A DNA stretch of 37,309 nucleotides, from positions 1 to 37,309 of the forward strand of contig DAHUYR010000028.1 of the NCBI GenBank assembly GCA_027315135.1, in the 5' to 3' direction. This document shows, piece by piece, positions 25,346 to 25,578 of this stretch. Position 1 is the first letter of the stretch; every line of letters begins with the position of its first letter. The notes beneath the pieces were generated by a model. The model made no database searches. It worked only from the letters and a program-made list of their open reading frames with translations, and was not told the DNA's origin. A program made the position numbers and the translations under genes. The stretch comes from Microcaldota archaeon (lineage in GTDB: Archaea; Micrarchaeota; Micrarchaeia; Micrarchaeales; CABMGC01).

Positions 25346-25473
25346 TCTTTAAAAGCGATAATGATTACATTCGGCTATTATTTATTAATCTGTAATGCCT
25401 GTTAAGGTTTTATTAGTTTAGCGTATTTAAATAAATTTGTGTGCCGGGATGGCAGAATCCGGTATCGCGCCAG

Positions 25474-25486
25474 AAATTTTGGCGAA
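25474..25486 (+). other. tRNA-Ser intron 1 (position 30/31)
   Basis: AAATTTTGGCGAA is predicted to be cut after the second base of each 3-nt bulge, 25473/25474 and 25486/25487. The central helix is exon CGCC (25468-25471) with intron GGCG (25481-25484). The position inside the anticodon stem differs from the canonical 37/38 site. Confidence 0.85.
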
Positions 25487-25525
25487 ACTCGAGATCTGGT
25501 GGCCTTCGGGCCTTTTGGGTTCAAA

Positions 25526-25539
25526 AGATTTTCTGAAAA
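25526..25539 (+). other. tRNA-Ser intron 2 (T loop, position 59/60)
   Basis: AGATTTTCTGAAAA is predicted to be cut at 25525/25526 and 25539/25540. The central helix is exon TTCA (25520-25523) with intron TGAA (25534-25537). Removal restores a 7-nt T loop closed by TTGGG/CCCAA. Confidence 0.85.
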
Positions 25540-25578
25540 TCCCAATCCCGGCGCTTATGCGTAACACACGATGGTCTG

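Follow-up and report, generated by a model that had tools for sequence, protein, structure and literature searches.

The only tRNA-Ser(CGA) gene detected in this micrarchaeal genome is, with a probability of approximately 95%, interrupted by two protein-spliced mini-introns that would be cut out by an epsilon2 splicing endonuclease, the exons then being rejoined most likely by the ligase RtcB. The gene is located at positions 25443-25553 (+) of the window, which is the whole analysed stretch of 37,309 nucleotides, and is a type II tRNA-Ser gene with the anticodon CGA, interrupted twice. The anatomy of the gene, the conservation of both introns, the intronless orthologues and the presence of both the enzyme and the ligase were directly observed.

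Gene anatomy and splice motifs

Exon 1 (25443..25473, +) comprises tRNA positions 1-30, with the acceptor 5' strand, the D arm and the anticodon stem 5' strand CCAG, and is followed by intron 1 (25474..25486, +), 13 nt inserted at 30/31 with the sequence AAATTTTGGCGAA. Exon 2 (25487..25525, +) comprises positions 31-59, including the rest of the anticodon arm with CGA, the long variable arm, the T stem 5' strand and the T loop to A59. Intron 2 (25526..25539, +), 14 nt at 59/60 with the sequence AGATTTTCTGAAAA, separates it from exon 3 (25540..25553, +), which carries position 60, the T stem 3' strand and the acceptor 3' strand. The discriminator G73 is at 25553, and CCA is not encoded in the gene.

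The gene as it stands was missed by ARAGORN and Rfam; four other tRNAs were detected in the window. ARAGORN called tRNA-Ser(cga) after both inserts were removed, and removal of either one alone was insufficient. The ARAGORN comparison of spliced and unspliced sequences and the intronless orthologues described below both indicated that precise removal of the two inserts restores a standard tRNA. The sequence-only reading of this DNA had proposed the split gene with these coordinates, intron positions, lengths and cut points, and had held that the tRNA does not fold without splicing; both proposals were confirmed by ARAGORN, and the former also by orthologues with the predicted junctions.

In the D stem (window 25452-25467) an A12-C23 mismatch was present here and in many members of the family, with G12-C23 or A12-U23 in others. 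This mismatch could be taken as a sign that the gene is a decaying pseudogene and that tRNA-Ser(UGA) serves the UCG codons instead, the more so as a tRNA-Ser(TGA) gene is present (L038), whose product might in principle decode UCG through wobble. Such decay is, however, highly improbable, because the acceptor, anticodon and T-stem pairs are all intact once the inserts are spliced out, and many species preserve the exons and splice motifs although their intron interiors differ. In addition, when the genome, whose assembly is 88% complete, was searched both by family and by pattern for another intact tRNA-Ser(CGA) gene, no second copy was found.

Both introns have a 4-bp central helix formed between exon and intron near the intron 3' end, with cuts 2 nt past each side. 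For intron 2, TGAA (25534-25537) pairs with the T-loop TTCA (25520-25523), the outer helix is the T stem, and there are a 3' bulge AAU, a 5' bulge AAA and a 2-bp inner helix; the 59/60 site as modelled is thus a proper bulge-helix-bulge. For intron 1, GGCG (25481-25484) pairs with the exon CGCC (25468-25471), but this core lacks an inner helix, for which 13 nt are too short, and is backed by no more than a single good outer pair (G24-C32), which makes the site a relaxed bulge-helix-loop rather than a full bulge-helix-bulge. Therefore, the earlier description of a 4-bp helix flanked by 3-nt bulges at both sites holds for intron 2 and had to be revised for intron 1. RNAfold indicated that the intron 1 core may be extended here by AGA:UUU, which would pair its 5' bulge; this extension was not conserved in relatives. 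The fold with both core helices enforced was 2 kcal/mol above the minimum.

Conservation of the inserts among relatives

The spliced sequence alone, which carries no information on the inserts, was used as the query against 98 relatives. Among the 61 orthologous genes parsed, 28 had both inserts, 23 had only the one at 30/31, six had a canonical 37/38 intron instead and four had none. All 28 genomes with both inserts belong to the window's own family. Exons joined exactly as predicted whether an orthologue carried two inserts, one or none, and the junctions in the four intronless genomes (L062, L067/L068 and L070) are those predicted for the spliced form.

The exact match of the intronless orthologues to the spliced junctions argues against the alternative that the mature molecule is an atypical tRNA in which the inserts persist as odd loops. 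This alternative, considered as improbable as the pseudogene, also conflicts with the variable lengths of the inserts (11 to 45 nt), with the destruction of the anticodon stem that a retained intron 1 would cause, and with the presence of an epsilon2 endonuclease in the genome. The source assembly is fragmented (50 contigs), which might raise the suspicion that the inserts arose through errors in sequencing or assembly; this explanation was refuted by the same inserts in independent assemblies of the same genus (L047 and L048) and of many other genera, and its probability is negligible. In these two same-genus sister genomes the introns were near-identical to those of the window.

The splice motifs were conserved at the cut positions. 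In the loci found by the spliced-sequence search, for which the motif was not asked, all 51 of 51 inserts at 30/31 ended in GGCG plus two nucleotides, which fits the exon CGCC, as compared to 1.0% of shuffled inserts. Statistics for intron 1 from a pattern scan were discarded as circular, since the pattern itself requires GGCG, and covariation could not serve as a test for this intron, since the exon bases of the helix are constant; the exon 1 end GCGCCAG is invariant among relatives. The intron 1 interiors were of 66 kinds in 75 distinct sequences, a set that includes pattern-selected loci. For intron 2, all four core pairs were present at the 59/60 cut in 33 of 39 distinct relatives versus 4.6% of shuffled introns. 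The T-loop introns were 14 to 45 nt long, most of them retaining TGAA or TGGA, and the long ones had an inner hairpin, such as GCTCC...GGAGC in L050. The conservation of these motifs, set against their rarity in shuffled sequences, indicates that neither intron is due to chance.

A canonical 37/38 intron was found in place of the 30/31 intron in seven genomes (L167, L170, L172, L179, L184, L185 and L186), which means that the position of the intron changed within the order. One of these genes, L179 from the window's own family, was missed in the parse of 61 genes and was read separately. The labels 'Marsarchaeota' and 'bacterium' on six loci (L077, L104, L116, L123, L144 and L146) appear to reflect wrongly named Micrarchaeota bins, because three of these loci (L104, L116 and L146) have tRNA genes identical to those of relatives of the window.

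Splicing endonuclease, ligase and the case of Hadarchaeota

The genome (G000; 0.81 Mb) encodes one splicing endonuclease gene, located on another contig (L001:1204-2358(-)), and an RtcB ligase. Residues 6-384 of the 384-aa endonuclease aligned over the full length to the ARMAN-2 EndA 4FZ2 (E 4e-147, 56% identity). The protein contains the domains PF02778 and PF01974 in a single chain, the size of which fits the alphaN-alpha-betaC type (~390 aa). The structure of an epsilon2 endonuclease with RNA has been described, and the residues named there are the catalytic Tyr-His-Lys, the Arg/Trp sandwich and the Tyr-Lys of the ARMAN-specific loop (PMC12397907). In the alignment these correspond to Y233/H248/K279 (ARMAN-2 Y236/H251/K282), R272/W381 (R275/W384) and Y157/K158 (Y160/K161), respectively. 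By these sequence features the enzyme is a three-unit epsilon2 endonuclease of the ARMAN type, which is the type that the sequence-only reading had suggested looking for in the genome. An endonuclease match was obtained in 93 of the 98 relatives, with most open frames near 380-430 aa.

From these components we infer the cleavage and ligation reactions and the order of splicing. The gene would be transcribed as a single precursor, and the epsilon2 endonuclease would cut both ends of each intron by recognising the CGCC:GGCG and TTCA:TGAA helices, after which the exon ends would be joined, most likely by RtcB. Left unspliced, the precursor would have the anticodon stem 5' strand occupied by intron 1 and the T loop by intron 2, and would not reach the mature fold.

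A pattern scan for the 30/31 motif in 84,980 genomes returned 75 stretches, nearly all from Micrarchaeota, and two from Hadarchaeota, where the intron also lies in tRNA-Ser(CGA) (L098:2935-2966 (+) and L143:1886-1918 (-)). The flanks of these two loci are syntenic. In each of the two genomes a single 179-aa EndA of the alpha type was detected, whose sequence is related to those of the M. kandleri and M. jannaschii alpha subunits and which shows a gap at the ARMAN loop when aligned to the enzyme of the window's genome. The tRNA-Ser(CGA) gene is intronless in the related genomes L246 and L247, which suggests an independent gain at 30/31 in Hadarchaeota. A partner subunit may be too diverged for PF01974 or PF02778 to detect, or may be absent from the assembly. 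An independent gain of the 30/31 mini-intron in Hadarchaeota, where only a loop-less alpha-type EndA was detected, is proposed tentatively and is rather doubtful. If the alpha-type EndA alone removes this intron, the rule that relaxed noncanonical introns require a loop-bearing enzyme would not be general, and the 30/31 exon site would be a hot spot of intron gain. The Hadarchaeal case also weakens the earlier statement that two noncanonical introns demand an endonuclease of relaxed specificity such as this type: the epsilon2 enzyme is indeed present in the window's genome, but "demand" was too strong a word.

Other tRNA introns and comparison with known systems

Reading of the tRNA loci of the genome identified T-loop introns also in tRNA-Ser(GGA), Arg(TCT), Arg(CCT), Leu(CAA) and Ala(GGC), and canonical introns in Tyr, Ile(TAT), Met, Ala(CGC), Leu(GAG), Phe, Trp, Ser(TGA) and Ser(GGA). 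The tRNA-Ser(GGA) gene (L229; G000:C24:26531-26658, - strand) thus has two introns as well, one canonical and one in the T loop. Almost all tRNAs share the T loop TTCAA, and an intron end TGAAAA fits almost any T loop, which may account for the frequent use of this site here. The tRNA-Leu(TAA) gene (L042; G000:C19, about 592-700) seems to contain a D-loop insert, which would be another noncanonical intron. A 3' part of tRNA-Glu(TTC) (L043; G000:C43:1534-1603) lies about 600 bp from an intact tRNA-Glu gene and is possibly the trace of an integrated element.

The Arg(TCT) T-loop intron (AGACCTTCTGAAAA) and the one in Ser(CGA) of the same genome are identical at 12 of 14 positions; the regions compared were G000:C40:46365-46389 (L039, L240) and window 25518-25542. 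Without the constrained half, six to seven of eight free positions matched, as compared to roughly 0.005 and 0.0005 by chance, from a crude draw on a small hand-picked base pool. In other genera the Ser(CGA) and Arg(TCT) introns were unlike each other. The likeness is only weakly beyond chance and at most suggests transposition or conversion.

ARMAN-1 and ARMAN-2 are among the archaea with multiple-intron tRNAs, and their epsilon2 enzyme is known to cut introns of the BHL and hBH forms at a range of positions in tRNAs (PMC4033280). The window's genome resembles them in phylum, in the type of endonuclease, with conserved catalytic and ARMAN-specific-loop residues, and in relaxed-motif mini-introns at noncanonical tRNA positions. 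Both the multi-intron tRNAs and the endonuclease of ARMAN have already been published (Fujishima et al. 2011 and Hirata et al. 2012, summarised in PMC4033280), and the Ser(CGA) gene is a further well-supported example. This gene with its 30/31 and 59/60 pair is not named in the ARMAN literature covered, which included summaries of the original 2011 and 2012 papers.

In the Thermoproteales, multi-intron tRNA genes have been reported (Sugahara et al. 2008; Fujishima et al. 2010; summarised in PMC3218864 and PMC4033280), with two or three introns in tRNAs of Pyrobaculum and Thermofilum (PMC3218864), and intron transposition has been described (PMC4033280). The likeness lies in several noncanonical introns in one tRNA and in similar introns in different tRNAs, whereas the endonuclease there is of the (alpha-beta)2 type with a Crenarchaea-specific loop, and here of the epsilon2 type. 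Permuted tRNAs of Thermofilum pendens are joined at 59/60 (PMC3218864), the same T-loop junction as in this study, but the gene described here has the normal order with an intron and is not permuted.

The known picture of ARMAN-type splicing is unchanged by these results, which also show that standard scans overlook tRNA genes in such genomes. One tRNA gene, with two introns, one, a canonical intron instead, or none, provides a comparative set that spans two families, nearly all members of which keep the same endonuclease type, and this set makes intron gain and loss, as well as the real substrate limits of the endonuclease, testable.
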